From assembly GCA_022704435.1 (NCBI GenBank), contig JAKJGK010000004.1, positions 1-48,626 on the forward strand: a stretch of 48,626 bases of DNA, read 5' to 3'. Shown here in pieces: positions 3,618 through 39,191 of this stretch. Position 1 is the stretch's first letter; each line of letters begins with the position of its first letter. The notes under the pieces are model-generated. The model did not search any database and had not been told where the DNA came from. It saw nothing but the letters and a program-made list of their open reading frames with translations. This DNA is from Synergistota bacterium (GTDB lineage: Bacteria > Synergistota > Synergistia > Synergistales > Aminobacteriaceae). The translations under genes and the position numbers were made by a program.

Positions 3618-3632
3618 CGCGGGAGGGATTCT

Positions 3633-4070
3633 ATGGTCGAACGTGACATACTCATAGCCAAGACAGCGACGATCCAGAGATGCCTGGCGAGGATCGGCGA
3701 AATCACAGGACTCGACCCGACAAGTCTGGACGACCTGGACAAGCAGGACATCTTCGTCCTCAACCTGCAACGGGCCGTCAAGGCAGCGATAGACTTGGCG
3801 GCTCACGTTGCGGCGTCCGAGGAGATGGGAATTCCTGAGACCGCCTCCGGTTGCTTCACGCTGCTTCATCGGGGCGGCATCATCGACACAAGACTGCTTG
3901 ACAGGATGACGAAGATGACTGGATTCAGAAATATCGCAGTTCACGACTACCAAACCCTCGACCCCGAAATTCTGAAGTCCATCCTCGTAAATGGGTTGAG
4001 GGACCTGGAAGAGTTCTACGCCACGGTCCTGGCTTATTTTGAAGGGACAAAGACGCAGGACAACCGCTGA
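3633..4070 (+). CDS. HepT-like (DUF86/HEPN) RNase toxin without its MntA partner
   Basis: 145 residues, mostly helical, with the HEPN catalytic motif Rx4HxY in RNIAVHDY (Arg99, His104, Tyr106). HepT proteins are toxic ribonucleases. They are normally neutralised by the adjacent nucleotidyltransferase MntA, which AMPylates the tyrosine of this motif. No MntA-like gene is present on either side. The gene lies 15 bases after gyrB with its own GGGAGGG ribosome site, so it may ride on the gyrB transcript. Its base composition is visibly less GC-rich than gyrB, which fits acquisition by transfer. It could be a solitary HEPN protein with another role. Confidence 0.75.
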   Translation: MVERDILIAKTATIQRCLARIGEITGLDPTSLDDLDKQDIFVLNLQRAVKAAIDLAAHVAASEEMGIPETASGCFTLLHRGGIIDTRLLDRMTKMTGFRNIAVHDYQTLDPEILKSILVNGLRDLEEFYATVLAYFEGTKTQDNR

Positions 4071-5134: not shown

Positions 5135-8100
5135 TTACTTGAGCGCCTCCCTGATTCTCCTGCTCAGGCGGTCCTTCACCATGTCCAGGGTCGTGTCGCC
5201 CCTGCCTTTTTTCAGGGCGTCCGCCTCCCGGCAGGCCACGTCGAGAAGGGCGCGGGAGAGTATCGCCGGTACATCGAGAGACGTCACAGAGCCGGAGAGG
5301 GGAACGCGGAAGTCCCACAGCGTCTCCTCCAGCGCGGATCGGAGGGTCTGCGTCGGCACGCCTCTTACGTGCAGTCCTCCTCTCTCCTCGCAGCTCTTCT
5401 CAAGCCTCTCGATCACGGAGCGGAACGACCTCTCGCCCTCCGAGTCGAAGAGCAGCGACGAATTCAGCATTGAGTGGGAGAGCAGCAGCTCCAGCAGATG
5501 CTCCGACCTCGCCGCGTCGCCGCTGATCCTCATGATCCTGTCGACGACCCCGCCCCTAGCAGACAGAACCCCGCCCTCCGCAGCCTCCGCCCTGACCCGC
5601 AGCTCCCTCTCCAGGGCCTCGGTCTCCTCCGAGGGGGCGCGGATGTCCCCTCGAACCCCGTCGACATCGTCCAGCCCGGAGACCAGGATCGCGCCCTCTG
5701 CGACGCTCGCCGCGAGAGCGCGCACGGTCCTGTGGGGCATGACGCACGATACCTCGCGCACGCGCTCCTCGCCCGGCCTCGCCGCGATCACATGGCTCAA
5801 CAGGGTGTCGAAGACCATGTCCCCCCACGACGCGAAGTGCAGCTCCGCCTCCCCGCCGTCGATGCCCCTCTCGTACAGATCCCTGTCCGCGGTGAGGCAG
5901 ACCCCGTCCTCTACCCCCGGCACGCCTCGGACCATAAGGACCGAATCGCCGTGCCCGGCCACCCTTGCGCACCCGAGCGCCTTCAGATACTCGGACTGAA
6001 GCAGGACCTTCCACGCGCCCTCGAGCGTCGCGGGGCGGACCTCCTTGTCCATCCCCTCGCGGATGCGAGAGTAGAAGTCGTACTGATCTCCAGGCGACAT
6101 TTCCATCCCGGCCACCCGCCGTCTCTGATTCTCAAGACGCTCCAGGGCGCGCCTCTCAAGCTCCCCCTCGGACAGCTCGCGGGAAGCGTAGCTCTCGAAC
6201 TCGTCCGGCTGCACCGGCAGCAGGGAGAAGTCCAGCGACCCCACAAGATCCATCGCCCCGTACAGACGCTTCAGGAGCCGGTCGTATATGGCCTCCTCCA
6301 CCGACCCCAGAACGCACATGTTCAGCACGTGGACCGTGTCGTGCCTCTGCCCGATCCTGTCGATCCTGCCTATCCGCTGCTCCACCTTCATCGGATTCCA
6401 CGGGAGATCGAAGTTGATGATCATGTCCGCCGTCTGGAGGTTCAGCCCCTCCGCCGCGGCGTCCGTGCAGAGCAGCAGGTCGATCTCCCCGCGCAGGAAG
6501 AGGCGCTTTACCTCCTCTCTGCCGGTCCTCTTCTCCTCGTCGGCCTCGGCGTCGTAGAAGGAGCACTTCTTTCCGCTGTAGACGCCGGTGCGCAGCGTCG
6601 GCTCGCGCAGGCGAAGATGCGCCCGGATGTCCTCCAGAGTGTCCATGTAGCGGGTGAAAAGAACCGTCTGCCGAAGCCGCTCCCTCTCCCGCCTCTTCTC
6701 CAGTTCGCTCAGCAGGGCCCTGATCTTCGACGGAATGCCGGTCATCCCGTCCAAACGGGCGATCATGCCGGCGAGCCTGCCTCTCTCCCACTCCAGGTCC
6801 TCCTGCCCCCTGTTCTCGAGGAAGCCCTCCAGTGCGTCCCCGTCCGGGAAGAGCTCGACGTCGTCGTCCTGCTCCTCCGCCTCGTAATCCGGCAGAGCAG
6901 CGCCGTGCGCCAGAGTCGCCTCCACCTTCTCCCTTCGCCGCCGCAGGGACTCGGCCAGTGCGAAGAGCGACGAGGCGAAGCGTTGCCGCAGAAAGCTCAG
7001 GTAGAAGCCCAGGCTCGCCCTTTCGGCACCCTCCCCCCTCTCCCCCAGAAGGTCCTTGAGCTCGGCGCAGTAGAGCTGAAGATCGTCGTAGACCTCCCTC
7101 TCTCCGGCGGAGAAGCCGATCATCGGCGGAGGCATCAGATTGCGCGTCGCCAGCCCCGCTCTCAGCTCCCCCTTTTCCTGGTAGATCCCCAGCAGCTTGC
7201 GCGAGTGGCGCAGCATCACCCGCGAGAGGGGAGCGATGGCGAAGAGAAGAGGTCCGACCTCGGAGGGTCGGGGCGTCCTGCCCCTTTCGCACCAGTCCTC
7301 CATGCGCCTCCTGAGTCGCCCGTGGATCAGGCCGTCGCCGAGGACCTCCCAGTACATGGGGTTCTCGCACTGAACTCGGGTCACCACATTCCGCAGAAAG
7401 ATCCAATCGTCATCTTCGAGCCCCCCGCCGTCGGCGACCCGCCCCAGCAGATCGTAGTAGCTCCTGGTCAGAGAGGGCGACTTGTCGAAGGCCCCCGTCC
7501 TGCGCAGGAGCCTCAACAGGTCGTGCGCCTCCACCCAGTCGAGCTGCACTGGGGTGGCCGTCGCCAGCCAGAGGGAGCGGGCCTTCCCGACGAGCAGTTT
7601 GGATATGGCCTCGTAGAGATTGTTGTAATCGGGATTTACCCTGCACCCGTCCTCAGCGGAGGAATTACTTCTGCGGGCGGCGTGAGCCTCGTCCACCAGG
7701 ACAATGTCAAAACTCTCCGCCCTGCCTATCTCCTCATGCCGCTCCTTGCGGACAAGCAGACCGGTGGAGACGATGCACAGGTCGGGCGACAGAAGCCCCT
7801 CGGAGCGGTCGGTGGCGCTCTCGGGGAAGAGGGCCTCGTGCCTCGCAGGCTGAGACGACACGACGAGGCGGAAGGGGAGGAAGAACTTCTCCGCCATCTC
7901 GCGGAGCCACTGACGACCCAGCCCCGCCGGCGGAGCGATCAGGATCCGCCTGACGACGCCCGAGAGCAGCAGCGACCGGAAGGCGAGCCCGGCCTCTATC
8001 GTCTTGCCAAGCCCGACCTCGTCGCAGAGGAGAAAGCCCTTCGGGTAGCTCTCGACCAGTCGTCGGGCCACCATCCTCTGGTGCGGCCAGGGCGCCACAG

Positions 8101-8977
8101 GGGCGGACTCCATCCCCAGCCACAGACCTCCTGGCATCTGAGGGGCGAGCTGAAGCACCCTGAACGAAAGCCACTCTCGAAAAGAGGGTGCAACCCCGCC
8201 GACCCCCGACGCAACCCTGCTGGACGCCGTGCGCGGATGCGCGGACTCCCCCAACTGGACAAGCCTCTCCCGCACCGCCTCCGGAAGGGTGTATACGCGC
8301 AGATGGGGACTCCCGTTCTCCCAGAGCAGGTCGAAGTCCCTCTTGTGCTCCTCTGCCCTCTCGGAGGAGGGTTTCCCCCACCATCCGGCGTCGACAGCGA
8401 TGTTCTCCGCGTTCAGCACCAGGGCCGACCTCGACTCGTTCAGCGAGCCGCCGGCCAGCAGGATGTCCCCGGCGTCGTCCTCGAACACGGCCCACTTCTC
8501 GTGGACATAGCCGTCCTCGTTCGAGTCGAAGGGAAGCCCCTCGCCAGTGACCGAATGCACCCGGATCGCGACCCGCACCTCCAGAACTCCCCTGGCCACC
8601 ATCCAGCCCAGCAGCTCCACCCCGCGCCGCACATCCTCCGGCCAGGACAGGTCCTCAAGCCGCTCCTCCAGAAGGCAGGAGAGACGCTCCTCCTCCCCGG
8701 CGAGCACAGCCTCCACGTCCTCCGAGTCCAGGTCCGCCCCAGTGATCAGCCTCATCCTTCCGTCGGACGCGGTGAAGGAGGCGAATCCCCGCGAGGCCGC
8801 CGCCAGCGACGACGACGTGAAGTAGCCCGCCATGCGGCGGTAGAGCACCGACCTCTCCAATGCGGGGATGTAAAAGTCGTTGAGGATGTCGTCCACCCTG
8901 CCGTCCGGCCGAAAGGCCGAGGTGCGATACTCGTACTCCCACTGTCGGCCCCTGAGTCCCCTCCCCTCGTCCGACAC
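5135..8977 (-). CDS. PLD-SNF2 (HepA/RapA-like) helicase of a defence operon
   Basis: 1,280 residues. The N-terminus is a phospholipase-D-like nuclease domain: HEK near residue 157, then GGSLNES, with Glu where the HxKx4D motif usually has Asp. The middle is an SNF2-type helicase: CDEVGLGKTIEAG near 320, VLVDEAHAAR near 425, ATATPVQLDW, then FTRYMDTLEDIRAHLR and GRIDRIGQRHDTVHVLN near 870. A long C-terminal region follows. Helicases of this type (COG0553 with PLD) accompany methylases in BREX type 3 and class 1 DISARM-like systems. The GTG start directly follows the methylase stop (TAGGTG) with GGGGA upstream, so it is the last gene of the operon. DNA translocation in phage defence is inferred from context. 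Confidence 0.85.
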   Translation of the reverse strand: MSDEGRGLRGRQWEYEYRTSAFRPDGRVDDILNDFYIPALERSVLYRRMAGYFTSSSLAAASRGFASFTASDGRMRLITGADLDSEDVEAVLAGEEERLSCLLEERLEDLSWPEDVRRGVELLGWMVARGVLEVRVAIRVHSVTGEGLPFDSNEDGYVHEKWAVFEDDAGDILLAGGSLNESRSALVLNAENIAVDAGWWGKPSSERAEEHKRDFDLLWENGSPHLRVYTLPEAVRERLVQLGESAHPRTASSRVASGVGGVAPSFREWLSFRVLQLAPQMPGGLWLGMESAPVAPWPHQRMVARRLVESYPKGFLLCDEVGLGKTIEAGLAFRSLLLSGVVRRILIAPPAGLGRQWLREMAEKFFLPFRLVVSSQPARHEALFPESATDRSEGLLSPDLCIVSTGLLVRKERHEEIGRAESFDIVLVDEAHAARRSNSSAEDGCRVNPDYNNLYEAISKLLVGKARSLWLATATPVQLDWVEAHDLLRLLRRTGAFDKSPSLTRSYYDLLGRVADGGGLEDDDWIFLRNVVTRVQCENPMYWEVLGDGLIHGRLRRRMEDWCERGRTPRPSEVGPLLFAIAPLSRVMLRHSRKLLGIYQEKGELRAGLATRNLMPPPMIGFSAGEREVYDDLQLYCAELKDLLGERGEGAERASLGFYLSFLRQRFASSLFALAESLRRRREKVEATLAHGAALPDYEAEEQDDDVELFPDGDALEGFLENRGQEDLEWERGRLAGMIARLDGMTGIPSKIRALLSELEKRRERERLRQTVLFTRYMDTLEDIRAHLRLREPTLRTGVYSGKKCSFYDAEADEEKRTGREEVKRLFLRGEIDLLLCTDAAAEGLNLQTADMIINFDLPWNPMKVEQRIGRIDRIGQRHDTVHVLNMCVLGSVEEAIYDRLLKRLYGAMDLVGSLDFSLLPVQPDEFESYASRELSEGELERRALERLENQRRRVAGMEMSPGDQYDFYSRIREGMDKEVRPATLEGAWKVLLQSEYLKALGCARVAGHGDSVLMVRGVPGVEDGVCLTADRDLYERGIDGGEAELHFASWGDMVFDTLLSHVIAARPGEERVREVSCVMPHRTVRALAASVAEGAILVSGLDDVDGVRGDIRAPSEETEALERELRVRAEAAEGGVLSARGGVVDRIMRISGDAARSEHLLELLLSHSMLNSSLLFDSEGERSFRSVIERLEKSCEERGGLHVRGVPTQTLRSALEETLWDFRVPLSGSVTSLDVPAILSRALLDVACREADALKKGRGDTTLDMVKDRLSRRIREALK

Positions 8978-11900
8978 CTACGTTCCCCGCCTTTCCCCCA
9001 GCGCGAAGAGGAGGGTCTCCGCCTCCCTCGTCAGCTCCTCCTCTGCGACCTCGGCGGCCCATATCCGCAGCAGCGCAAACAGGGACGACCGTTTCTCCGG
9101 CGCGCGCCTCTCCGCGAATCCTCGCGCCGCGACCTCCCCGCCACTTCTAAAGGCCCTGATCAGCCCGTGCAGAAGGTCCCACTCGGTCTGCGGGGACTCC
9201 ATCCTCCTGGCGGAGCGCTCCTCCGGCTTCGCCAGTCGCAGCTTGCTCCCGCTTCGAACCAGGGGAGCGTCGAACCCTTCGTCCTCGGCGAGAGCTCCTG
9301 CAACTCGGCCGCTGCGCACTCCGTTCACCCCGATGAACCGCCCGTTGGCCAAATACCCGCCCGATCTGTTCTCAAGCGAGATGTTCAGCGAGCGGGAGAG
9401 GTTCAGCCCCTCGTCGTAGGAGAAGTCGTTCAGGCCGAAGAGGGCGAGCAGCAGGGCCGCCATCGCGGCCTCCGGCGCCAGCTCCGACAGCAGGGAGGAG
9501 CCGCCGGCGACACGCCTCATCTGCTCCTCCGCGACGACCCGGGACGCCTCCAGCATCGCCCGATGAGGCCCGACCGGCTCGTCGCCGTCCAGAACCGGCC
9601 AGCGCCCCGACAGAACCTGCAGAGCCCGCCCGTAGCAGGAGACCATCTCGTCCACGGGGTTGAGGCCGAGGCCCGCGAAGTCGCGAAGTCCCTCCTCCAC
9701 GGCGGCGCGTACCTTGCTCTGCACGCCCCTGCCCCCCAGCCCGGTCCAGAAGGAGGGAGACCTCTCGTCTCCGTCCGGCCTCTTGCGGCAGGAGATGAAG
9801 ATGGAACTTGCGGCCGACGCATTTTCCATGATGTGTCGAGAGTTCAGAAATTCCGACGCCACAGGTGTTGTGGACGTTATGATCCACCCGTTTTCTATCA
9901 GGGCTTGGGTCAAGGACTCCCAGGCACCCTGGCTCTTGTGAGTGAACATCATGGTCATGATCCCGTCGTCCTTCAGCACCCTGCGCGCCTCGGCGAAGAT
10001 CTCTCCCATCATCCTCTCGTATGCAGCCTTCGCCTCGGACTCTCCGCCGTCGCGAGCCGGGTTCGCGACGGCCTCGCTCGCCTTGTCCGTCAGCCTGCGG
10101 GCGAACAGCTCCGGGAAGAGGTCGCCCAGCGTCCTTTTCTGCCAGACGTAGAAGAAGTCCGACAGCTCCGCGTACTGGACGTTGTCGTAGTAGGGTGGGT
10201 CGAAGCAGATCACGTCGACGCTCCGGTCTCCGACCGACGGCATGGAGGCTGCGGAGCCGTGCAGCAGGGTCAGGGGCGGCTCTCCTCTGGTCGCCTCGCG
10301 CACCGGTTCAAGAAGCTTGGCGATGCCTCTGTAGGCGTCCAGTATCTGCGACAGCCCCCAGGCCGCCCCGGAGTTCGGCCCGGCGAAGACCATCTCAGCG
10401 AAAGTCCATCTTAACGGGAAGCCATGCTCTGAAAAAGAATGACCAATTTGGGCTCTCTGGTATATCCACGTACACTGCTTGCTATTCCAGTCCAGCCCCT
10501 TGTCGATGGCGAACTGGAGGCAGGCGACCACCGCCGCGCCCCTCTCGACGCCCAGCTCCTCGATTATCAGCGGCTTCAGTCGGTTCAGCTCCTCGACGAG
10601 GATCAGATGACCGAGGAGCTGCCGGGGGGTGAACATGTCGCACCAGCGGTTTGTGCCATAGCGAATCGGCTCCCGCGTCTTATGCCCCTCCGTGATCGCT
10701 TCGATCGGGACAAGCCGCATCTCCTCCCACCTGTCCCAGTTCTCCGCAAGCATCGCCTCGGCGTCGTCCAGCGCGGCGAGATCCCGCTCGTTCGGGGGGC
10801 GGAAGAAGCGCACCTTCTCCGTCACTATCTCGCCCTTCCTCTCTCCGCTCTTGTAACGACGAACGTTTCCATCCCTGTCCAGCTTCGGCTGAAGTCGGAC
10901 AGCCGCGACTGCGTACAGCCGGTCCCTCCATCGGCCGTGCTCGGACTCTCCCCTGGCCTGGCGTTTTATCTCCTCTCCGTCGATCCCATGTTCGCAGTGG
11001 ACGCAGGTCCCCGCTCCCCTGCTCACGGTGAAGAGGTTCGGGTCCTCTCCGTTCGGACCCCGGCCCTTGCGCACCCTGTAGGTACGGAATGACACACTGC
11101 CGCCGCGCTCCTTTCCGTCCGGGATCACAGCCACTCCCCATTCGTCGCCGTCAACCTTGGACAGCCAGCAGGTGTTGAGCAGTGGCACCTCCCCGCCGCA
11201 GTGAGGGCAAGTCACCTGCCGGGCGAAGATCAGCCCTGTCTGATCAAACTCAACGTCTGCAAAACCTTCAACTGCATCGGGGCACTTCTTGCAATGCTCC
11301 TTAAGACGTGCGACCTCCTCCTCGGGCAACGGCGAAAAGGGCGTGACTCCCGCCGTAAGGTAAGAGACTTTTTCTAACAGCTTCTCGCCCCAGTATTCAA
11401 TATCGTCCACTAGCCGAGGTCCGTACTTGATCGGGAATTTAAGAGTGGCCTCCAGTATCATGGAAGCGACTGGATTCAATTCGTTAGCTATCACATCGCA
11501 GCCGAGCCGCAGGGCCTCGAAAGGGATGGATCCTCCGCCCGCCGTCATATCGAGGACTCTTTTCCCCTCTACAAGGGTAGGAGGGGCGTCGGAGAAAGCT
11601 CGCGCATAACCGTAAAGGTCCTCAAGGTCCCATTTTATCTGACCACCGATAATGCCGCTTACTTCAGGAAGTTTTGCGAAGGCGATCCGCTCCTTCACGT
11701 GAGCGGGGTCGGCTGACACACGCAGGACCTCCAGCTTCTCAAGCGGCGAAGGGGGCTCGAGCGGCGCTGTCTCCCTCTCCCATCGAAGGAGCACCGGATC
11801 GGACTCAAGGGTTGCGTCTGTCTTCAGCATCTCTATCTGCTCGCGGCATCGCGCCCTCCGCCCGTTCTCCTTCTGAAGGGCGCGCTCGGCGCGCTGGTCG

Positions 11901-12223
11901 AAGCGTATGAACTCACTCTCCTCGCCGGGCAGGCTCTCTATCAACTCCAGATTCTTTCCGACCAACACCCACTCCCCGCCCTGAAGGCGCGCGACGCGCC
12001 TCTCTATCCCCAGCTCCCGCAGGAACCAGTCTGGATCCGCGTCGGCAGGCAAGATCGAGCCGAGCACGGCGGCGCGGCTCGGAGTCAGCGGACGCCTCGC
12101 CCACCAGACGTGGAGATAGTAAAGAGGCGGCAGAGCGGAGCTGGAGCCTCGTTCGCGCTGGGTCTCCGCGCCCACCTGGTGGCAGGGGAAGCCGGCCTCT
12201 ATCAGTCTTTTGTCGTGTCTCAC
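8978..12223 (-). CDS. DUF1156 adenine-specific DNA methylase with Zn ribbons (COG1743)
   Basis: About 1,081 residues. The N-terminus RHDKRLIEAGFPCHQVGAET and LPPLYYLHVWWARRPLTP are the DUF1156 signature. The SAM site is DMTAGGGSIPFEALRLGCD near residue 220. The catalytic motif is DPPYYDN near 675. Cysteine pairs (CKKCPD, CPHCGGE, CVHCEHG) form zinc ribbons around 310-410. The enzyme should methylate adenine N6 as the self-marking part of a defence system. I use GTG 12223, which starts the conserved segment 17 bases after the upstream gene; longer forms overlap that gene. The BREX-3 methylase PglXI is related. No PglZ phosphatase gene is seen in the window. Confidence 0.88.
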   Translation of the reverse strand: MRHDKRLIEAGFPCHQVGAETQRERGSSSALPPLYYLHVWWARRPLTPSRAAVLGSILPADADPDWFLRELGIERRVARLQGGEWVLVGKNLELIESLPGEESEFIRFDQRAERALQKENGRRARCREQIEMLKTDATLESDPVLLRWERETAPLEPPSPLEKLEVLRVSADPAHVKERIAFAKLPEVSGIIGGQIKWDLEDLYGYARAFSDAPPTLVEGKRVLDMTAGGGSIPFEALRLGCDVIANELNPVASMILEATLKFPIKYGPRLVDDIEYWGEKLLEKVSYLTAGVTPFSPLPEEEVARLKEHCKKCPDAVEGFADVEFDQTGLIFARQVTCPHCGGEVPLLNTCWLSKVDGDEWGVAVIPDGKERGGSVSFRTYRVRKGRGPNGEDPNLFTVSRGAGTCVHCEHGIDGEEIKRQARGESEHGRWRDRLYAVAAVRLQPKLDRDGNVRRYKSGERKGEIVTEKVRFFRPPNERDLAALDDAEAMLAENWDRWEEMRLVPIEAITEGHKTREPIRYGTNRWCDMFTPRQLLGHLILVEELNRLKPLIIEELGVERGAAVVACLQFAIDKGLDWNSKQCTWIYQRAQIGHSFSEHGFPLRWTFAEMVFAGPNSGAAWGLSQILDAYRGIAKLLEPVREATRGEPPLTLLHGSAASMPSVGDRSVDVICFDPPYYDNVQYAELSDFFYVWQKRTLGDLFPELFARRLTDKASEAVANPARDGGESEAKAAYERMMGEIFAEARRVLKDDGIMTMMFTHKSQGAWESLTQALIENGWIITSTTPVASEFLNSRHIMENASAASSIFISCRKRPDGDERSPSFWTGLGGRGVQSKVRAAVEEGLRDFAGLGLNPVDEMVSCYGRALQVLSGRWPVLDGDEPVGPHRAMLEASRVVAEEQMRRVAGGSSLLSELAPEAAMAALLLALFGLNDFSYDEGLNLSRSLNISLENRSGGYLANGRFIGVNGVRSGRVAGALAEDEGFDAPLVRSGSKLRLAKPEERSARRMESPQTEWDLLHGLIRAFRSGGEVAARGFAERRAPEKRSSLFALLRIWAAEVAEEELTREAETLLFALGERRGT

Positions 12224-12240
12224 GCCCTCAACGCCCCCTC

Positions 12241-12843
12241 TCAGCTTCTGCGCAGCTTCTCGAGCACGGGAAGGATGTCCGGGTCCCCGGACTCGCCCGC
12301 CAGCAGAACGCGGAAGCCCGTCCGTGCCCATCGGCTCTCCACCGGGCCGAAGTCCGCGACGCGAGAGCGCCAGTAGGCGGCCTCCTCGCGCGTGAATCTC
12401 TCTATCCTACGGGCCATCAGCTCGACCCTGTCCATCTGCTTCACCCGCTGCGCGAGGGAGAATATCAGCGCCAGCTTGCAGCCGGCCTCGTCGTCCAGCG
12501 GAAGGTTGCCGCGGAATGCGACCGACGCGCCGTCGAGGCGGCGGTGCAGCTCCAGAGGGATCCCGTCGTCGTTGCGCACCCTCTCCACTATCGAGCGCAG
12601 CACCGGAGTCACTCTCCTGAGGGGGTCGCCGTACAGGGACGCCCTTTCGACGAGGACGGAAACCTTCCTCTCTCCGGGCGGCGCGTCCCTGCCTTGGCGC
12701 TCCTTCACGATGAACACCGGAGCGGGCTTGTCCTTGTGCTCGGTCACTCGCAGCACCCAGGGGAAGGTCCTCGCGCAGGGGAGCACTATCTCCCTGTGGT
12801 GCCTCTCCAGGTCGTAGCCGGTTGATCTTGCCTTCCTTGCCAT
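12241..12843 (-). CDS. Small protein of the DUF499-DUF1156 operon, function unknown
   Basis: 200 residues, soluble and rich in Arg and Glu, with no signal peptide or membrane segment. The core runs from ERHHREIVLPCARTFPWVL to FKVEKLRR-like charged helices; a segment GCKLALIFSLAQRVKQMDRV looks amphipathic. I do not recognise a catalytic motif. I believe similar small proteins accompany DUF499 and DUF1156 genes elsewhere, but cannot confirm a family here. The ATG at 12843 lies 2 bases after the ATPase stop with AAGAAGG upstream, so translation is coupled. It probably bridges or recruits the ATPase, methylase or helicase; that is inference. Confidence 0.7.
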   Translation of the reverse strand: MARKARSTGYDLERHHREIVLPCARTFPWVLRVTEHKDKPAPVFIVKERQGRDAPPGERKVSVLVERASLYGDPLRRVTPVLRSIVERVRNDDGIPLELHRRLDGASVAFRGNLPLDDEAGCKLALIFSLAQRVKQMDRVELMARRIERFTREEAAYWRSRVADFGPVESRWARTGFRVLLAGESGDPDILPVLEKLRRS

Positions 12844-12845
12844 CG

Positions 12846-15800
12846 TCAGTGCCTTCTTCTCTCGGCGATCTCGCGCACGAGGGGGCATTCGTCGTCCGGG
12901 TCGTCGATCTCGAGCCTCGCGTCGCTCTCGGACGTCGGTACGAGCTTGTCGCTCAATATCTCCAGCATCTCGGACAGGTGCCTGATGGAGTCGGGGCCTA
13001 TCATCCCGAGTTCGACGCTCATCCGAGTCCCTCCGGGCAGCTCGAAGTCGAACAGTTCGAACCTGTCTATCACTGTGGTTGCGCCTCTGGCGTAGAGAGG
13101 CCCTAGCTTTCGCGTCAGGGAGAGGATGGTGTCGAGCTCGTCCTTATCGAGGACGATCCTCCTGTCGTCGTGCCCCTTCCAGCCCCTGCGGCCTGCCTCC
13201 TCGTCACTGATCACAACAATGTTGTCCAGAGCGCCGACGGAGACTGCTGCCGCGCCGGAGACGAGTCTGTCGGGCCGCTCCGTCTGGTCCGGGTCGCCCT
13301 CGAATATGTGGACCCTGCCGTGGCGGGCGAGGTCGATCATCGCCTCCTTCACCTGGTCGGGGTCGGCGTCGGGATTGACTCTTCCGACCTCGCTCAGCGC
13401 CTCGTCGAAGCGGGCCGAAGGCCGTTTCTGGAGCAGGCCGTCGACGAGGTCCCGGTAGTCCCTCTGGGTCAGTCGTGGCTCGCTTCCCCATCCGCGCTTC
13501 CTCGCACCCTCGGGGGTGACGAGGAGCCAGTCGGGGTCGGGGATCTCGTTCAGCGGCACCTGGTTCCCGGCGTCGAAGAACCGGTCGGGGCGCGCCTCCT
13601 GGTCGTCAAAACCGACGGCCGCGCACCACAGCCCCTGCCTCACCCCCTCGGAGACTATGCGTGGCAGCAGTTCGAGCGACTCGAGCGCGGGCCATCCGCG
13701 TCGCTCGTAGAACCTCTTCTGCGCGTCCCCGACCGTTATGCGGTCGGAGGCTTCGAACAGGAGGTCGCGAAGCCCGGAGAGGGTCGCTCGGTTGATGTTG
13801 TCCTCGGAGAGTAGCTTGCCGACGTTCTGGAGGGCAGTCCTGATCTGCGTCCTCATGGCCTCGCCGCCCTCGCCTCCTGCGGTGCGTATCTCCGCGACGG
13901 AGAAGACCTGGTCCTCCGACGGGTAGACGAGGTACTTGCACAGCCTGCTGACCCTGGTCTCGAGAGCCTTCTCCCGCTCGGCCAGCTTGGCCTTGAAGTC
14001 GTGCGCCCTGAGCTGCTCGTGGGTGATGGAGTAGTCGTTGGGAGCGTCCTGAAGTCTCTTCATGGCGAGGACGGATCGGACGAGGTCGTAGATCTCCTGC
14101 AGGACGACCTCGGCCTCGGGTGCCCGGACGTCGAAGAGCGTCCTGTCGTCCGAGGGTCTCTTTATGGAGACGATCTCCGGCACCAGGAGAAACACCCTGT
14201 TCTGTTGTATGCGCGGCTGGTCGTGCTGCCGTCTGGTTATGAAGACGGCGGGGTCGGCCGTCTTCAGCCGGGGGGAGAGGAGGGCGAGCACGGGGCGTCC
14301 CGGCGCGTCGGGGATGTGCTGCGGCTCGACGACGTCCGCGACGACGGAGAAGCCTCGGCGGTCCTCGGTCACCACCTTGCGCAGCTTGGCCTCAAGCTCG
14401 GTGCAGAGTTGCTCCTCGGTGAGAGATTTTCTGATGCTGGACAGGGGGACGTTGATCGACGGCAGTGTGTCGGCGTAGTAGCGCCCGCTGCCGAAGTGGA
14501 GGTAGTAGGCCTTCTCGGATATGCTCTTCAGCGCCTCCTGCACCTGCGAGGGCGTGAGCTCGGGGCGTGCGGTGGCGAGTATGGCGTCCGTCTCGGCGAT
14601 CCCGAAGACGGTGCTGGACAGCCTCTGCGACTGGCCGGCGAGGCTGTGCAGCAGCACTGTCTTCCACGTGTCGACATGATAGGGGACCCCCAGGGGATGC
14701 CTGTTCTCGTCGTCGGCGATCTCCGCGTTGGAGCGCCCGGCCTTCAGCAGCGACGTGTCAGCCGTGCCGACGTCGGCGTTCACCACGGAGAGCAGGGCGC
14801 TGTTGTCGGTCCTGCCGAAGAGTTCGTCCACGGTGCGCGAGTCCATGAAGTCCAGGTGACAGGCGTGAATCGCGGACGGGTCGCGTTCCTTGAGCCAGAG
14901 GGATCGGACGGCGAGAGCGAGGATGCGAAGCACGCCCCTGGTCCTCTGGAAGGTGGGCACGGTGGAGAGTTTTTTGTTCAGCAGCTCGACCAGCGTCGGG
15001 TGAAATGGGTAGGAGGAGGCCATCTCCTCGACGTAGTCGTCCAGCCTGAACCCCGGCGGAAGGAGGGAGGCGTTCCGCCGATACAGCTCCCTGTACTCCT
15101 CGGCGCTCCTGCGGGCCTCGGCGGGGTCGATCGACTCGAAGAGCCGCTTGGCCAGCACGGAGGAGAGGTCCTTCGCCTGGACGGGGATCACGACCGTCTC
15201 GTCGCGGGCGAGCACGGTAGAGATGACGCTCATGGCGCTCTCCTGCTTGATGATCGCGTCCTCCCCGCCCATCTCCTTTCCGGAGGCCTCGGTCAGCATC
15301 CTGGCCAGGCCGGAGGTCTCGGCGGAGAAGGCGTCCTGCACGCTCGCGAGGGAGACGACAATGGCGATGCCCGGGTTCTTGCGAGCATGCTCGAACAGGG
15401 ACATGAAGAACGCGCCGGGCATCTCGCGGGCATCGGGATGCGCTACCGCCCACCGGGCCGCGTAGTGCGCGAGCTAGTCGATCAGGATGAGGGTTCTGCG
15501 TCCCCCGAAGACCTTCTTGAAGTACCCCTCGTCCGGGGAATCGAGGCGGTGAAGGTAGTCCGAGACATCGGCCTCCAGCTCCGAGCCGCCGATCTGGCGG
15601 GCGACCTCGGCCCACAGAGGGTACGGCCTCAGGTCCGCGCCGCTGTGAACCCGGACGGGAAGCTGCTCCCCTGCGACGGCGACCACCGAGATCTCCCCCG
15701 GCTCGGGCAGTGCATCCTCAGGAAGCAGCTCCCCGACCTCGGCGGCTATCTCCCTGCCCCTTTTCGCTATGTGCAGACAAGCTATCATCGTGTGGGTCTT

Positions 15801-16076
15801 CCCCCCGCCGAAGCCTGTCTCCAGCCTCTTGAGCAGGGGCGCGGTGGTGTCGCCGTCAAGGCGGGCGAATACGTCCCTGACGACGAGTTTCATGTTGTCG
15901 GTGGCGTAGGTCCCCTCGCTGAAGAAGGTCCTTGCATCGGTGTAGACGGTTCTGGAAGCGCCAGCGCCGGCGCGGTAGCTGTCGTGCACCTCCCCGAGAG
16001 ACGCCGTGAAATCGCCCAGATTGATTCTCCCCGAGAGGAGGTCCCTCCTCGGCACACATCCCTTCCGTATTCCCAT
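12846..16076 (-). pseudogene. DUF499 AAA+ ATPase interrupted by an in-frame amber at the Walker B glutamate
   Basis: Read through, this is a protein of about 1,076 residues of the DUF499 family (COG1483 ATPase). ATG 16076 has GGAGG 8 bases upstream, and CVPRRDLLSG follows as in the family. Walker A is GFGGGKTH near residue 90. The Walker B strand reads RTLILID, then codon 201 is TAG (15474-15476), then LAHYAARWAVAHPDAREM continues in the same frame. The expected residue is the Walker B Glu (GAG), so one base change explains it. The remaining 875 codons have no other stop or frameshift. A fragment could restart at ATG 15422 but would lack Walker A. In related operons the ATPase is essential, so the system is probably disabled unless the codon is suppressed or an assembly error. 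Confidence 0.85.
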
Positions 16077-16459: not shown

Positions 16460-17515
16460 TTGAAACAGGGCAGGATGGTACCGGTTTTTGTTTTGATGGC
16501 GTGCGTCTTCATCTTTAGTGCCCCATTGGGGGCGGCCCGCGCCGACGACGTGATCAACTGGAAGTTCCAGAGCCACCACACGCCTGGCGCGCTCTCGACG
16601 ACCTACGTGATCCCGCCGTTCATCGAGACGGTCAAGGAGAAATCCGGCGGCAGGCTCAACATCACCATGTACTACGCAGGCGAGTTGGTGGACTACCTGG
16701 AGGTCTTCCCGGCCATGCAGGCCAACATGATCCAGATGTCGAACACCAGTACGCTCTTCTGGAGGGGAAGCATCAACATGGGCTGGCTCCAGGCCGGCAA
16801 CCTTCCCCCCTTCGTCTGCAGGAGCCTCGACGACTTCGAGGAGCTTTACTATCGAAGGGGCATCGACAGGCTGATCGCGGAGGAGATGGATGAGAAGGAC
16901 ATCCACTTCTTCAGCAGCCACAGCGTGGGCAACACCTACTTCTGGAGCAAGAAGCCGATCAACGGGGTCGACGACCTCAAAGGGTTCAAGGTCCGCTTCT
17001 TCGGGTCGATGTCCGACACGATGGAGCACTTCGGAGCGTCCCCGGTCATGCTCCCCCACCCGGAGACCTACATGGCCATAGCCATGGGTACCCTGGACGG
17101 GAGCGGCACAGCCTGGTGGCTGTACCGCGACCTCAAGCTTTACGAGGTGTGCCCCTACTTCATCGGGCCGGCGTGGCAGGTGCCCCAGGGGATGGAGCTT
17201 TGGGCGTCGAAGAAGGCGTGGGACGCTCTGCCTGACGACCTCAAGGAGATAGTCACGGAGGCGGCGAAACAGTTCGACAAGGACTACGCAAGGGTCTGCG
17301 ATGAGCAGGAGAAGGAGATGTTCGAGAAGTCCTTCAAGGAGTGGGGCACGACCTACATCGAGTGGGGGCAGAAGGACATCGACAGGATAACGAACGAGTT
17401 CTCCATCCCGTACCTGGACAAGATCGACAGCGAGATAGGGTCGAAGGACGCGCGCGTTGCCGAGGGCATCAAGATCATCAAGCAGTTCATGAAGGATCGC
17501 GGCTACATACAGTAA
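16460..17515 (+). CDS. dctP: TRAP transporter substrate-binding protein DctP (copy 1)
   Basis: 351 residues. A signal peptide (MKQGRMVPVFVLMACVFIFS, cleavage after AARA) leads into DDVINWKFQSHHTPGA and the DctP fold. The protein is periplasmic and delivers an organic anion to the DctQM membrane subunits. The family motif region GVDDLKGFKVRFFG and PETYMAIAMGTLDG is intact. The start is TTG with AGGAGGTG 7 bases upstream; no ATG fits. Copy 2 at 19518 is about 85 percent identical by eye, and the DNA around 16980-17130 matches 20036-20187 almost base for base. The substrate is unknown; the 5-oxoproline gene neighbourhood hints at an amino-acid-derived acid. Confidence 0.92.
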   Translation: MKQGRMVPVFVLMACVFIFSAPLGAARADDVINWKFQSHHTPGALSTTYVIPPFIETVKEKSGGRLNITMYYAGELVDYLEVFPAMQANMIQMSNTSTLFWRGSINMGWLQAGNLPPFVCRSLDDFEELYYRRGIDRLIAEEMDEKDIHFFSSHSVGNTYFWSKKPINGVDDLKGFKVRFFGSMSDTMEHFGASPVMLPHPETYMAIAMGTLDGSGTAWWLYRDLKLYEVCPYFIGPAWQVPQGMELWASKKAWDALPDDLKEIVTEAAKQFDKDYARVCDEQEKEMFEKSFKEWGTTYIEWGQKDIDRITNEFSIPYLDKIDSEIGSKDARVAEGIKIIKQFMKDRGYIQ

Positions 17516-17611: not shown

Positions 17612-18166
17612 GTGAGCGGTTTGGGCTTCCTTATCACTTTTATCAACTTCGTTGACGCGCTTAACGACTGGGTGGGCAAGATCTGCGCCTTTCTGGTGTA
17701 CCCGACCATGCTCGTGCTTGTGTACGAGGTGGTGATGCGCTACGGCTTCAACAGCCCGACGATCTGGGCGCACGAGACTTCGTGCATGCTCTACGGGGCC
17801 CACTTCGTCCTGGGAGGGGCCTACGCGCTCCGATGGGGGGCCTTCGTCAACGTCGAGGCCATCTACATCAAATTCTCCCCCAGGACCAGGGCGGTGATGG
17901 ACCTGTTCACCTGGACCCTGTTCTACGCGTTCGTCGGGACGCTGCTGTGGCTGAGCGCTCCGTGGGCGTGGGAGAGCCTGCGCGTCATGGAGTACTCGAA
18001 CAGCACATGGGGGCCGTACGTCTGGCAGCTGAAGCTTACCATCCCGGCCGCCGCCTTCCTGGTCCTGTTGCAGGGCATGACCAGGACGATCAAAGATCTT
18101 CATTTTGCAATTACGGGGCGAGAACTGTTGACCGGCAGTGAAGCTCCCTCCGAAAGCCAGGTGTGA
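17612..18166 (+). CDS. dctQ: TRAP transporter small permease DctQ
   Basis: 184 residues with four hydrophobic segments, the DctQ architecture: an N-terminal helix ending VVMRYGFNSPTIWAHE (the family's R-Y-x-F-x-x-P-x-x-W-x-x-E motif), LYGAHFVLGGAYALRWGAFVNVE, and two further helices. It anchors the TRAP complex and partners with DctM. The GTG at 17612 is kept as the start, but TTG 17621 may be the true one: it has GAGGTG 6 bases upstream, the same layout as both dctP genes. The stop overlaps dctM by 4 bases (GTGA). Confidence 0.92.
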   Translation: MSGLGFLITFINFVDALNDWVGKICAFLVYPTMLVLVYEVVMRYGFNSPTIWAHETSCMLYGAHFVLGGAYALRWGAFVNVEAIYIKFSPRTRAVMDLFTWTLFYAFVGTLLWLSAPWAWESLRVMEYSNSTWGPYVWQLKLTIPAAAFLVLLQGMTRTIKDLHFAITGRELLTGSEAPSESQV

Positions 18167-19488
18167 TATCTATCATGAGCATTGAGTGGATCTCTGTTCT
18201 TCTCTTCGGCAGCATGTTCCTGGTTCTGATGATGGGCCTGCCGGTGGCCTTCGTTCTTGGAGGCCTGGCCACGGTGTTCACCGCGGTCTTCTGGGGCCCG
18301 GAATCCCTTTTCATCATAGTCGCCAGGACCTACTCCATGATGTCCACCACGACTCTGGTCGCCGCCCCGCTGTTCGTTCTTATGGCGACCGTGCTGGAGC
18401 GCTCCGGGGTGTCGGAGGAGCTGTACGATATGATGTACCGCTGGATGGGGTCAATCAAGGGCGGCCTCGCCATCGGCACGGTGCTGGTCTGCACCCTGAT
18501 CGCCGCGATGTCGGGCATAGCCTCGACCGGTGTGGTCATGATGGGGGTCATGGCCCTTCCCGCCATGCTCAAGCGCGGGTACGACAAGAAGCTTGCGGTT
18601 GGCTGCATCCTGGCCGGGGGCGTCCTGGGACCGCTTATTCCGCCAAGCATCGCGCTGGTGCTGTACGGCACCATCGCGCAGGTCTCCATAGGCGCCCTGT
18701 TCGCGGGCGGGATGAGCGCGGGGCTGCTGTGCTCGGCCCTGATCATAGGCTATATCCTCATCAGGTGCTACATGAACCCCGAGCTCGGCCCTCCCATCCC
18801 GGCAGAGGAGCGCTCGAACTGGGGCGCTAAGATAGCCTCCCTGAAGGGTGTGCTACTCCCCTTCCTCCTGGTCTTCGCGGTGCTTGGCTCGATCTACGGG
18901 GGAATCGCAACCCCCACGGAGGCCTCCGCCGTGGGTGCGCTGGGGGCGATCATCTGCAGCGCCATACACGGCAAGCTCAACTGGGACTTGATAAAGGAGT
19001 CGGCCTACACCACGATAAAGGTGCAGGGATTCATGATGTGGATACTGTTCGCGGCCCAGGCCTTCGCGGCTGTCTACATGGGGCTCGGGGCATCGCGGAT
19101 GGTCATAGGCCTGGTGAAAGAGTACCAGGTCGGATGGTGGGCGATGCTGATCGGCATCCAGGTGGTGTGGTTCCTGCTGGGGTTCGTGATAGACGCGTGG
19201 AGCATCCTGATGATCACGGCGCCTATCATCCTGCCTCTCATGCCGATCTACGGGTTCAACCCTCTGTGGCTCGGCGTGCTGTACGCGGTGAACACGCAGA
19301 CCGGCTACCTCACCCCGCCGTTCGGCACGATGCTGTTCATGATGAAGGGAATCGCTCCGAAGGGAGTGACCACGTCGGACATCTATCGCTCAGTGGTGCC
19401 GTTCGTCATCACGCAGCTGGTCTGCCTGGCGCTTTGCATCGCGTTCCCGTCGCTGGTGCTCTGGTTGCCGAGCCTGTTCTTCAATTGA
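18163..19488 (+). CDS. dctM: TRAP transporter large permease DctM
   Basis: 441 residues, about twelve hydrophobic segments. Family features include MMGLPVAFVLGGLATV, the first-half motif GIASTGVVMMGVMALPAMLKRGYDKKLAVG, GGVLGPLIPPSIALVLYG, and the second-half repeat TPTEASAVGALGA. It is the ion-coupled translocation subunit and usually uses a sodium gradient. It overlaps dctQ by 4 bases; ATG 18175 is an alternative start. The second binding protein follows after 29 bases without a terminator. Confidence 0.94.
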   Translation: MISIMSIEWISVLLFGSMFLVLMMGLPVAFVLGGLATVFTAVFWGPESLFIIVARTYSMMSTTTLVAAPLFVLMATVLERSGVSEELYDMMYRWMGSIKGGLAIGTVLVCTLIAAMSGIASTGVVMMGVMALPAMLKRGYDKKLAVGCILAGGVLGPLIPPSIALVLYGTIAQVSIGALFAGGMSAGLLCSALIIGYILIRCYMNPELGPPIPAEERSNWGAKIASLKGVLLPFLLVFAVLGSIYGGIATPTEASAVGALGAIICSAIHGKLNWDLIKESAYTTIKVQGFMMWILFAAQAFAAVYMGLGASRMVIGLVKEYQVGWWAMLIGIQVVWFLLGFVIDAWSILMITAPIILPLMPIYGFNPLWLGVLYAVNTQTGYLTPPFGTMLFMMKGIAPKGVTTSDIYRSVVPFVITQLVCLALCIAFPSLVLWLPSLFFN

Positions 19489-19517
19489 CGAACCTATAAC
19501 AACAGGAGGTGTTTTCA

Positions 19518-20576
19518 TTGAGAAACCGAAGAGTCGCCACGCTTCTAACAGCTTTTCTGCTGATCGCGGGAGCGGCGCTTGTCGGCGCGTCATCAGCCTG
19601 CGCGGACGACGTGATAGAGTGGAAGTTCCAGAGCCACCACACGCCCGGCGCGTTGTCGACCACCTACGTGATCCCCCCGTTCATCGAGAGGGTGCGCGAG
19701 AGGTCGGGCGGCAGGCTCAACATCACCATGTACTACGCAGGCGAGCTGGTGGACTACCTGGAGGTCTTCCCGGCGCTTCAGGCCAACATGATCCAGATCT
19801 CGAACACCGGCACCATCTTCTGGAGGGGCAGCCTCAACAGCGGATGGTTCCAAGGGGGGAACCTGCCTCCCTTCATCACTCGCAGCCGAGAGGACTTCGA
19901 GGAGCTCTTCTACAGGAGAGGACTCGACCGTCTGACCAGGGAGGAGCTGGCGGAGAAAGGCATCCACTTCCTGAGCAGCCACAGCGTGGGCAACACCTAC
20001 TTCTGGAGCAAGAAGCCGATCAACGGGGTCGACGACCTCAAGGGGTTCAAGGTTCGCTTCTTCGGGTCGATGTCCGACACGATGGAGCACTTCGGAGCGT
20101 CCCCGGTCATGCTCCCCCACCCGGAGACCTACATGGCCATAGCCATGGGCACCCTGGACGGGAGCGGCACCGCCTGGTGGATGTACCGCGACCTGAAGTT
20201 GTACGAAGTTTGCCCCTACTTCATCGGGCCGGCCTGGCAGGTGCCCCAGAGCATGGAGCTTTGGGTGTCCAAGAAGGCGTGGGACGCACTCCCCGACGAC
20301 CTCAAGGAGATCGTGACCCAGGCGGCGGACGAGTTCAACAAGGATTACGCCGACGTTTGCGAACAACAGGAGAAGGAGATGTTCGAGAAGTCCTTCAAGG
20401 AGTGGGGCACGACCTATATCGAGTGGGGACAGAAGGACATCGACAGGATAACGAACGAGTTCTCCCTCCCCTACCTCGACAAGATCGAGCAGGACGTTGG
20501 CTCCAAGGACCCGAGGGTGGCCGAGGCCATCCAGATCATCAAGCAGTTCATGAAGGACCGAGGCTACATAGAATAG
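19518..20576 (+). CDS. dctP: TRAP transporter substrate-binding protein DctP (copy 2)
   Basis: 352 residues, with a signal peptide cleaved after SSACA and mature DDVIEWKFQSHHTPGA. It is closely similar to copy 1 over the whole length. Differences cluster in the surface segment from GNLPPFITRSREDF to KGIHFLSS and at the C-terminus. The start is TTG 19518, with AGGAGG 8 bases upstream; a GTG at 19509 overlaps that ribosome site and is less likely. It is the last gene of the TRAP operon. Two binding proteins on one transporter usually means a widened or tuned substrate range; this is inferred. Confidence 0.92.
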   Translation: MRNRRVATLLTAFLLIAGAALVGASSACADDVIEWKFQSHHTPGALSTTYVIPPFIERVRERSGGRLNITMYYAGELVDYLEVFPALQANMIQISNTGTIFWRGSLNSGWFQGGNLPPFITRSREDFEELFYRRGLDRLTREELAEKGIHFLSSHSVGNTYFWSKKPINGVDDLKGFKVRFFGSMSDTMEHFGASPVMLPHPETYMAIAMGTLDGSGTAWWMYRDLKLYEVCPYFIGPAWQVPQSMELWVSKKAWDALPDDLKEIVTQAADEFNKDYADVCEQQEKEMFEKSFKEWGTTYIEWGQKDIDRITNEFSLPYLDKIEQDVGSKDPRVAEAIQIIKQFMKDRGYIE

Positions 20577-25502: not shown

Positions 25503-25552
25503 CGCCTTAAATACAAATTTTCCAACAATGACTACTGTTCCAGTCGGAATAG

Positions 25553-25650
25553 GACCTCCGAGTCTCAGGGCCTAAAGGCGCACTACCCACGGACTGAGAC
25601 CGACAGGGTGTGTTTGGAAACGAACACGCCTCTCATATGGCAAGGAGGCT
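25553..25650 (+). promoter_or_regulatory. Candidate molybdenum/tungsten cofactor riboswitch (Moco RNA-like aptamer)
   Basis: The 5' CCTCC (25555-25559) can pair with 3' GGAGG (25644-25648). Inside, GTCTCAG (25562-25568) pairs with CTGAGAC (25594-25600) around a small GCC-TAAA-GGC hairpin, and GGAAACG plus GCCTC lie near the 3' side. The same blocks, in the same order, occur in the leader of the formate dehydrogenase gene at 39019-39117. Both genes encode molybdopterin enzymes, which is the known setting of the Moco RNA motif. Terminator-like stems follow. I recognise the motif from its blocks and context, not from a covariance search. Confidence 0.7.
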
Positions 25651-25656
25651 TTTTTG

Positions 25657-25702
25657 GGACACCTGCTCAACCCCGATGGCGGATGCCGACGGGTTGAGGT
25701 CC
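25657..25702 (+). other. Long stem in the expression platform of the riboswitch leader
   Basis: GGAC (25657-25660) and CTCAACCC (25666-25673) pair with GGGTTGAG (25691-25698) and GTCC (25699-25702), with a 5-base bulge on the 5' side. It lies between the aptamer and the strong terminator and may arrange the switch between them. Confidence 0.5.
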
Positions 25703-35441: not shown

Positions 35442-36047
35442 TTAGTTCTCTCCTACCGCCTTGCCCGGCGAGCGCCTGTGGTAGTAGCCGTCCGTCAGCC
35501 CGGCGCAGCCTCTGCAGACCGGACCGTGGTCGGGCGGGTAGGCCTCGCCGCACACCGGGCAGATCACCGGGGGGACTTTCTCCCTGACCCTGAGCAGGTT
35601 CGGCTCCACCGAAACCTCCTCTACGTCGAAGAGCGACTGCCCCGCCTCGTTTATCTGGTCCAGGATCGCCTCTAGGCTCTGCTCGTGCTTCGGGATCAGC
35701 TTCAGGTACCACTCCCGGACGCGCGGCCAGTCCTCCAGCCTCTCCATGCTGAGCGATATGCGCACCCCCTCCCCCGTCTGCTTGTCGTAGAATACCCCGG
35801 CGAATCTGCCGGTATCCACTATCTTGAGCCAGTGGTTTCCCACGGTGCAGGGGGTCAGGAGCTGAATCGTGTCGGCCATGCACTTGCGCGTCTCGCAGAT
35901 CACGTCCATCAGAACGCCCTCGGGGAGCAGCTCCCACGCCATGTTTACCATGTGCAGGGCCAGCACTCCTCCGGGGGCGGGCTTGCCGTGGAAGAGTTCA
36001 AGTTCTTTGAGAAAATCCTCGTAGGACTCGAACCGTCCGTACTTCAT
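35442..36047 (-). CDS. FmdE-like protein of the formate dehydrogenase operon
   Basis: 201 residues. ESYEDFLKELELFHGKPAPG and the segments CETRKCMADTIQLLTPCTVGNHWLKI and DTGRFAGVFYDKQTGEGVRI match the FmdE (formylmethanofuran dehydrogenase subunit E) family, here outside methanogens. The C-terminal zinc finger CPVCGEAY to CRGCAG is intact. The ATG shares one base with the TGA of the formate dehydrogenase gene, so the two are co-translated. Stand-alone FmdE proteins are linked to molybdopterin enzymes; the role is not settled. Confidence 0.82.
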   Translation of the reverse strand: MKYGRFESYEDFLKELELFHGKPAPGGVLALHMVNMAWELLPEGVLMDVICETRKCMADTIQLLTPCTVGNHWLKIVDTGRFAGVFYDKQTGEGVRISLSMERLEDWPRVREWYLKLIPKHEQSLEAILDQINEAGQSLFDVEEVSVEPNLLRVREKVPPVICPVCGEAYPPDHGPVCRGCAGLTDGYYHRRSPGKAVGEN

Positions 36048-38800
36048 CAGGCTATCTTCTCGATCCTCACCGCGCACGCCTTGAAGGAGGGGGTGAGGGT
36101 GTCGGGGTCGAAGTGCTTCAGGTCCCCGCTCAGCAGATGGTTCGCGTTGGTGTCCCAGAAGTGGAAGGACATCCAGACCATGTTGGGGGCGATGCGCTTG
36201 GAGACATTGGCCTTGATCCTGACCTCGCCGCGCCGCGACACTATGCGAATGGTCTCGCCGTGGGCGATCCCCAGCCTCTCCGCGTCCTGCACGGAGATGT
36301 CGGCGAACTCCTCGGGCATACGCTCGTTCATCCCCTTCGAGCGCCCGGTCTGGGTTCTCGAGTGGTAGTGGACAAGGCGGCGGCCGGTGCTGAGCACCAT
36401 CGGGTACTCCTCGTCGGGGACTTCGCTGCTGGGCACCCAGTCGATGGCCTGGAAGAGCCCCTTGCCGCGCGTGAACTTGCCGTCCTTGTGCAGTACCTGC
36501 GTGCCCGGGTGATCCTCGGTCGGACAGGGCCACTGGATGCCGCCGATCCTGTCCATGCGGTCGAACTTGATCCCTGCGAAGGCCGGGCACAGCTTGGCTA
36601 TCTCGTTGTCCCAAAGCTCCTGTCCGCCGGTCGACGGCCAGTCGTGGCCGAATCTCCTGGCGACCTCCTTGAAGATCCACCAGTTGGGCCTCGCCTCGCC
36701 CGGCGCCTCCTTGATCTTGCGCACGCGGCTGACCCTGCGCTCCGTGTTGGTGAATGTGCCCTCGTCCTCGCACCAGGCGGCGGAGGGAAGGATCACGTCG
36801 GCGTACTGGGTTGTCTCGGTGTTGAAAATGTCCTGCGCGATCAGGAACTCCGCGGAGTTCAGGCAGTGCGACACGTGACGCGGGTCCGGCTCGGTGGCGA
36901 CGAGGTTCTCGCCAAAGATCCAGAAGGCCTTGAGCTTGCCCTCGGGCAGACCGTTGACCATGCGTCCGATCATCATGCCAGGCTTGTCGGGCAGTGACTC
37001 GTTGCCCCAGAAGTTCGCGAACTTCCTGTTGAGCTCCGGGTTCGCCACGCTCTGGTAGCCCGGGTACATGTTCGGCAGCGCGCCCATGTCGCACGCGCCC
37101 TGCACGTTGTTCTGCCCGCGCATCGGGTTCACGCCGCCGCACTCCACTCCCATGTTGCCGAGCAGCATCTGGAGGTTGGCCAGCGTCATGACGTTGCGCT
37201 TGCCCGACACGTGCTCGGTGATGCCGAGCGTGTATATCACCATGGCCGGCTTGATGCTGCCGAGCATCCTGGCGATGTCGATTATCGTCTGCTCGGGCAC
37301 CCCGCTTATCTCGGCGGCCCTGCTGACGGGGTACTCCATTATCTTCGCCTTGAACTCGTCGAAGTTCTCGCAGTTCTTCTCGACGAACTCCTTGTCATAC
37401 AGGTTCTCGTTGATGAGGACGTTCATTATTCCGTTCAGGAAGGCGATGTCCGAGCCGACGCGAAGCTGCGCGAATATGTCGGCGTAGTCGGCCAGCTCCT
37501 GCCTCCTGGGGTCGACGACGATAAGCTTCGATCCGGACTCCACCCCGTTCTTGAGGAAGGTCGCGGCCACAGGGTGGGCCTCCGTCATGTTGGTGCCGAT
37601 GCAGAACATGAGCTTCGCCTTCGCGAACTCGCCCACCGTGTTGGTCATTCCGCCTGCTCCAAAGCTAGTCAGTAGCCCCGCTACTGTAGGAGCGTGTCAT
37701 ACACGTGCACAGTGGTCGATGTTGTTCGTCCCAAATACCGATCGGAAAAGCTTCTGCATGCTGTAGGAGTCCTCGTTGAGGCTGCGCGCGCAGCTTACTC
37801 CGCCGACCGCGTCCGGCCCGTGCTTCTGCATCACCTCCTTCAGCTTCGTGGTGACCAGGTCGAGCGCCTCGTCCCATGAGGCCTCGCGGAAGGTGTCGTC
37901 GGGGCTCCTGTCCTTGCCCCTGCGGACGCGGATGAGCGGCTTGGTCAGCCTCTCGTCCGAGTAGATGAAGTCGTAGGCGAAACGTCCCTTGACGCACAGG
38001 CGGCCGAGGTTGGGCATTCCGTCCTCGGTACCGGTGACCCTTACGATCTTGTCGTCCTTCACGTGGAGGTCGAGCTGGCAGCCGACCCCGCAGTAGGGAC
38101 AGGTGGTGCGGACGGTCTTGGTCTGCCACGGCCTGCCCTGGCCCATGGATTTCTTCTCCACCAGGGCGCCCACCGGGCACACCTGCACGCACTGCCCGCA
38201 GAAAACGCAGTCCGAGCCCTCGTCCTCGAGCTTTACACCGACGGGGGGGTCGATCTGCGTGTTTATTCCCCTGTACATGAAGTCGATGGCGTGGTACCCG
38301 GCCCTCCAGTCGCACGCCCGCACGCAGCGGCCGCAGAGGATGCACTTGTTCATGTCGCGGACGTAGAAGGGGTTCGTGTCGTCGAGGGCGTGATGCGTGT
38401 TGACGTCGCCCTCGTCGCAGAAGGGAGACTTCTCAATGCCAAGCTCGTAGGCCAGGTTCTGCAGCTCGCACCTGCCGTTGGCCTCGCAGGAGAAGCAGTC
38501 GAGGGGGTGCCTGATGAGTATCATCTCGACGACGGCCTTGCGGGCGGCCAGGATCCTGGGGCTGTTGGTCGTGACGACCATCCCCTCGGTGAGAGGGGTC
38601 GTGCAGGCGGTGAGAAGTTTGGGGTTCTTCTCGGCCTCGACGAGGCAGATGCGGCATGCGCCGCTTGGCGGCAGTGCAGGATGATCGCAGAGCGTCGGGA
38701 TGTAGATGCCGTTGGCCCGGGCCGCCTGGAGGATCGTGGACCCGGGTTCCGCCGTGATCGTTTGCCCGTCTATCACGGCGGTGATCATGTTTTTCACCAT
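36047..38800 (-). CDS. fdhA: Selenocysteine-containing formate dehydrogenase alpha subunit (FdhA/FdhF type)
   Basis: 917 residues when the in-frame TGA at 37697-37699 is read as selenocysteine 368, in HCARV-Sec-HAPTVAGL, the classic formate dehydrogenase active site. N-terminal [2Fe-2S] ligands are Cys38, 49, 52 and 66. A NuoG-like His-Cys3 cluster (CFSCEANGRC), two ferredoxin clusters (CILCGRC, CVFCGQC) and the proximal [4Fe-4S] (CPYCGVGC) follow, then the molybdopterin domains. A SECIS-like hairpin lies 10 bases after the TGA. The enzyme oxidises formate or reduces CO2 in the cytoplasm, perhaps with an unseen NADH or hydrogenase partner. ATG 38800 has AAGGAG 7 bases upstream. Automated calls may split it into two genes. 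Confidence 0.96.
37670..37699 (-). other. Selenocysteine UGA codon and SECIS-like hairpin
   Basis: The TGA lies at 37697-37699. After 10 bases, minus-strand CAGTAGC and GCTACTG (37670-37686) form a perfect 7-base stem with a GGG loop. Spacing and the loop guanines are those expected of a bacterial SECIS bound by SelB. Confidence 0.88.
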
Positions 38801-38973: not shown

Positions 38974-39018
38974 CAGAAAAGACGACGATCCCCGCAGACT
39001 TTCGCGCGGATTGCTCGT

Positions 39019-39117
39019 CCTCCTTTCCAAGCACGGGAGGCATGCCCGTTTCCGGGGATACCCTTGCGACCGTTCGCCCTGGGGCGTCTGCCCTTTAGGC
39101 GATGCGGCTCGGAGGTT
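39019..39117 (-). promoter_or_regulatory. Candidate molybdenum/tungsten cofactor riboswitch before fdhA
   Basis: CCTCC (minus strand, 39111-39115) can pair with GGAGG (39019-39023). Between them lie GCCTAAAGG, a CGCCC/GGGCG hairpin, GGAAACG and GCCTCC. These blocks and their order match the leader at 25553-25650, while the rest of the two sequences differ. That pattern is expected of a conserved aptamer and not of a recent duplication. It lies 320 bases before the fdhA start with a terminator between. Confidence 0.7.
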
Positions 39118-39191
39118 CATTATCTGGGGACAATCCAATGCCCCTCGGCGATGAAGTTGTCGATTTCACAAACTCCCTGCCATGCGAGGTT

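Follow-up and report, generated by a model that had tools for sequence, protein, structure and literature searches.

A DUF499 ATPase gene with an in-frame amber codon at its Walker B glutamate, in a BREX-related/Hma-like operon of a Synergistota genome

Loci of the kind described here appear in the literature under two names, Hma (PMC8565338) or the Type-1, Type-2 and Type-3 BREX-related (BR) systems (PMC12839542). As profiled by PADLOC, Hma consists of a helicase (HmaA), a methylase (HmaB) and an ATPase (HmaC) (PMC8565338). The Type-2 BR system is centred on a DUF499 ATPase, which is accompanied by a DUF1156 N6-methylase, a PLD-helicase and a small extra core gene, named as DUF3780 (PMC12839542). 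NCBIfam likewise holds an 'anti-phage-associated' set composed of DUF499, DUF1156 and phospholipase D families.

We analysed a window of 48,626 nt that makes up an entire contig (C52) in a draft metagenome-assembled genome (MAG) of a Synergistota bacterium (2.44 Mb, 236 contigs, 94% complete). Four abutting genes on the minus strand, taken to be one operon, encode in this order a DUF499 protein, a DUF7680 protein, a DUF1156 methylase and a PLD/Snf2 helicase. The DUF7680 gene (12241-12852, minus; Pfam PF24728, E 4.1e-33) is intact; its start is probably the ATG found just after the DUF499 stop at the gene junction, the ORF being open from an ATG at 12888. The DUF1156 adenine methylase gene (8978-12331, minus; PF06634, E 1.3e-12) is also intact and encodes a DPPY motif, as is the gene for the PLD-type nuclease/Snf2-like helicase (5135-8977, minus), in which profiles and motifs reveal an N-terminal PLD nuclease motif (HxK...GSxN) and a DEAH box. 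The nuclease motif (VHEKW...GSLNES) is kept in three orthologues, and the gene matches NF042964 (phospholipD_antiphage) with an E-value of 1e-92, under the equivalog cut-off. The three frames that neighbour the DUF499 gene (1,280, 1,117 and ~203 codons) are thus undamaged. The identical four genes occur intact and in the same order in two genomes of the same taxonomic order (G041 and G121), and the cassette also follows the closest homologues in Verrucomicrobiales, Sporotomaculum, Hydrogenophaga, Alicyclobacillus, Phycisphaerales and others, and is present on one IMG/VR contig (L170). Across cassettes with DUF499, DUF1156 and PLD-helicase genes from many phyla (homologous loci L090-L107 and L170), DUF7680 is a near-constant member.

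Judged by its sequence, the operon belongs with the known Hma and Type-2 BR systems, and the PLD helicase puts it next to Type-2. All three Hma parts match the PADLOC profiles (HmaC, 4.8e-23 for the 5' part and 1.3e-40 for the 3' part; HmaB, 8e-64; HmaA, 1e-51); however, contrary to Hma, the locus carries DUF7680 as an extra gene, its HmaC is interrupted, and its helicase scores higher with the PbeA and PLD_Helicase models than with HmaA. The likeness to the Type-2 BR and NCBIfam sets is in gene content: a DUF499 ATPase gene, a DUF1156 N6-adenine methylase, a helicase fused to a PLD/HKD nuclease and a small additional core gene are all present. It differs from Type-2 in that the slot of the standalone DUF3780 core gene is filled by a gene that matches DUF7680 only, and from both sets in that the ATPase gene contains a stop. 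Scores also fall far under the NCBIfam equivalog cut-offs, which marks the locus as a divergent branch.

The stop lies in the core of the ATPase. Direct reading gives CTA at plus-strand positions 15474-15476, hence TAG on the minus strand, and translation of the minus strand from 16157 to 12846 shows 1,104 codons with a single internal stop (GGRRTLILID-stop-LAHYAARWAVAHP; around the codon, RTLILID-stop-LAHYAARW). The start is most likely the ATG at 16076, which has AGGGAGG before it; the frame then spans 1,076 codons, open but for the TAG at codon 201. Its 5' part (15477-16076, minus) encodes the Walker A motif (GFGGGKTH, residues 88-95) and continues up to the Walker B Asp, and its 3' part (12846-15473, minus) comprises 875 open codons encoding the remaining ATPase and a C-terminal DUF7744 domain, with DUF499 and DUF7744 matches, and ends on a TGA at 12846-12848. 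Chance does not account for the frame, its homology or the single lesion, all of which are real. The initial annotation had placed an amber codon exactly on the Walker B glutamate, with the frame intact for about 875 codons beyond and no other lesion, and our translation and alignments confirm it in both respects.

The nearest orthologue (G041; 50% identity over 1,073 amino acids) is stop-free and has Glu at the TAG position, in the sequence ILIDELAHYAARW; the second (G121; 44% identity) is stop-free as well, and both encode this Glu by GAG. More broadly, homologous loci were collected within the phylum, among named genomes of many phyla and on viral contigs; Glu is encoded in all 140 loci whose alignments reach this codon (76 GAG, 64 GAA). 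In these alignments the Walker B Glu is therefore all but invariant, and the homologues run on past this point, as they would not if the protein naturally terminated here. The idea that the family naturally ends at Walker B is likewise rejected, as the DUF499 frames of the phylum continue through it; when 188 genomes of the phylum were surveyed with Pfam DUF499, the studied gene was the sole match with an internal stop. That the original codon was GAG, as first proposed, is plausible given the majority of GAG and its use in both closest orthologues, but GAA fits a single sequence equally well. No relative suited to a dN/dS comparison was found, none in the 188 genomes being closer than 50% identity, and neither a single-protein genome scan nor a nucleotide search of plasmids gave a match. 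In the four other genomes of the genus, neither DUF499 nor the downstream protein had a match; such absence from other genomes of a genus is usual for defence genes.

These observations are probably best explained by a recent single-base nonsense substitution that inactivated the DUF499 AAA+ ATPase of a Type-2 BREX-related/Hma-like anti-phage operon of restriction-modification-like character. Where the two orthologues agree, substitution in the studied gene stands at 20% upstream of the stop and again at 20% across the next 249 residues, which argues that the loss is recent; farther downstream it reaches 27-37%, tracking a drop in conservation between the orthologues themselves. The intact neighbouring frames, free of any other lesion, also suggest a young loss, provided that it is real. 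The gene thus resembles an ordinary nonsense pseudogene, with a single disabling change and no further decay, intact orthologues and constraint that is not relaxed after the stop; the sole difference is the location of the stop at a catalytic residue, and we regard it as an ordinary case of its kind. Only one of the 268 possible nonsense-making changes in the frame falls here, and among damaged homologous loci (see below) none is hit at the Walker B codon; the position, spotted post hoc, therefore looks like chance without special cause.

If the substitution is real, translation would stop at the Walker B Asp after ~200 residues; of the two motifs of a DUF499 AAA+ ATPase, both present in the intact orthologues, the truncated product is then predicted to retain Walker A only. 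The ATPase site and the C-terminal domains would consequently be absent, and the restriction-like arm of the system would be expected to fail. The methylase and helicase-nuclease genes would stay intact, their expression perhaps lowered by polarity; loss of the ATPase with the methylase kept is the direction that should spare the host. The locus would then show a defence operon shortly after it was switched off, its methylase and nuclease-helicase genes as yet undamaged. Defence systems are commonly gained and lost, and such a case agrees with this and leaves their general understanding unchanged.

A distinctly less probable reading, though one with real weight, is that the metagenome assembly carries the TAG through a consensus error, or from the allele of a minority strain, and that the gene is intact in the population. 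The single lesion, the constraint kept after it, the otherwise intact operon and the draft MAG source support a nonsense loss or an artefact alike, the two readings offered at the outset (a defence system lost very recently, or a faulty assembly); in the sequence of a draft MAG, a wrong base or a minority allele would look identical to a true mutation. Damage to DUF499 does occur in comparable assemblies: among the 140 loci, one has an internal TAG (L138, at query position ~331, site 5015) and two have frame breaks (L139, near query position 507; L089, between 208 and 268, after Walker B), and these three give a working base rate of about 2% damaged DUF499 genes in such assemblies. L138 lies on a Gemmatimonadetes MAG contig labelled cov 1.66, as expected if its stop came from low-coverage assembly. 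As all three loci are broken elsewhere, a lesion hot spot at Walker B is rejected. Against an artefact, of the 9,684 single changes that the frame can undergo (1076x9), only 268 (~2.8%) give a stop, so random errors would rarely resemble this lesion, and at an assumed 1e-5 errors per base we estimate that false stops of this type would number less than one in the whole genome. The 48.6 kb contig also bears no other lesion: none was seen in the frames of the other 25 window genes, a selenocysteine UGA aside. A literature search on stop-codon errors in MAGs gave nothing.

The nonsense substitution, or its artefactual look-alike, leaves little room for expression of the whole protein by split synthesis or read-through, which even jointly appear improbable. 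Two polypeptides could arise by a restart at an in-frame ATG only 18 codons past the TAG (minus, 15422), with halves that complement each other. This is very hard to credit: the ATG lacks a Shine-Dalgarno-like sequence in front of it, the break runs through Walker B within the AAA+ core, and none of the examined homologues is split at the TAG codon.

Slightly less credible again is read-through of the UAG (as Gln, Tyr, Lys or a special amino acid) to yield a full-length ATPase, possibly the ATP-holding E-to-Q form. The base after the TAG is C, which generally makes for a comparatively leaky context, and low-level near-cognate reading is always possible. Read-through would matter if true; none of the preconditions tested was found. 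None of the 42 tRNA genes matched in the draft genome has a CUA anticodon, all anticodons being ordinary, PylS was not detected in a genome search, prfA (RF1) is encoded (525 bits), and TAG is an ordinary terminator that ends 8 of the 26 window genes. The recovered tRNA set is itself incomplete, lacking tRNA-Phe, tRNA-Ile-GAU and tRNA-Ala-UGC, so that a suppressor tRNA gene could conceivably sit in an unassembled part of the genome. A pyrrolysine or otherwise suppressed-amber gene would be marked by PylS or a CUA tRNA, by rarity of TAG as a terminator and by a TAG kept in homologues; none of these marks is seen, and decoding of this kind is rejected. Programmed read-through through an RNA structure 3' of the stop is also rejected, no stable structure being found there (z +1.36, weaker than shuffles). 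On this decoding evidence, and with Glu in all relatives, neither in vivo suppression of the codon nor an E-to-Q protein made by Gln suppression, both raised by the initial annotation, finds support. The faintest candidate of all is partial read-through that would supply a little of the complete ATPase, some of it carrying Gln at Walker B, and so tune or dampen defence.

The window does contain one real recoded stop, elsewhere. The formate dehydrogenase alpha subunit gene (NuoG-like N-terminus; 36047-38800, minus) has an in-frame UGA (TGA 37697-37699) in the context CARV-U-HAPTVAGL, which is a selenocysteine codon; a tRNA-Sec is found in the genome (74.6 bits, G000:C47). In a mechanical ORF list this gene appears as two ORFs. 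Two molybdenum/tungsten (Moco) riboswitches (39004-39126, minus, and 25544-25663, plus) lie upstream of the formate dehydrogenase gene and of a molybdopterin xanthine-dehydrogenase-like gene. Directly 3' of gyrB, a HepT-family RNase toxin gene (3618-4070, plus) scores 134 bits with HepT_toxin, versus a cut-off of 60. Finally, two very similar TRAP-type solute-binding protein genes (16460-17515 and 19509-20576, plus), apparently a recent duplication, flank a single set of TRAP membrane genes at 17612-19488.
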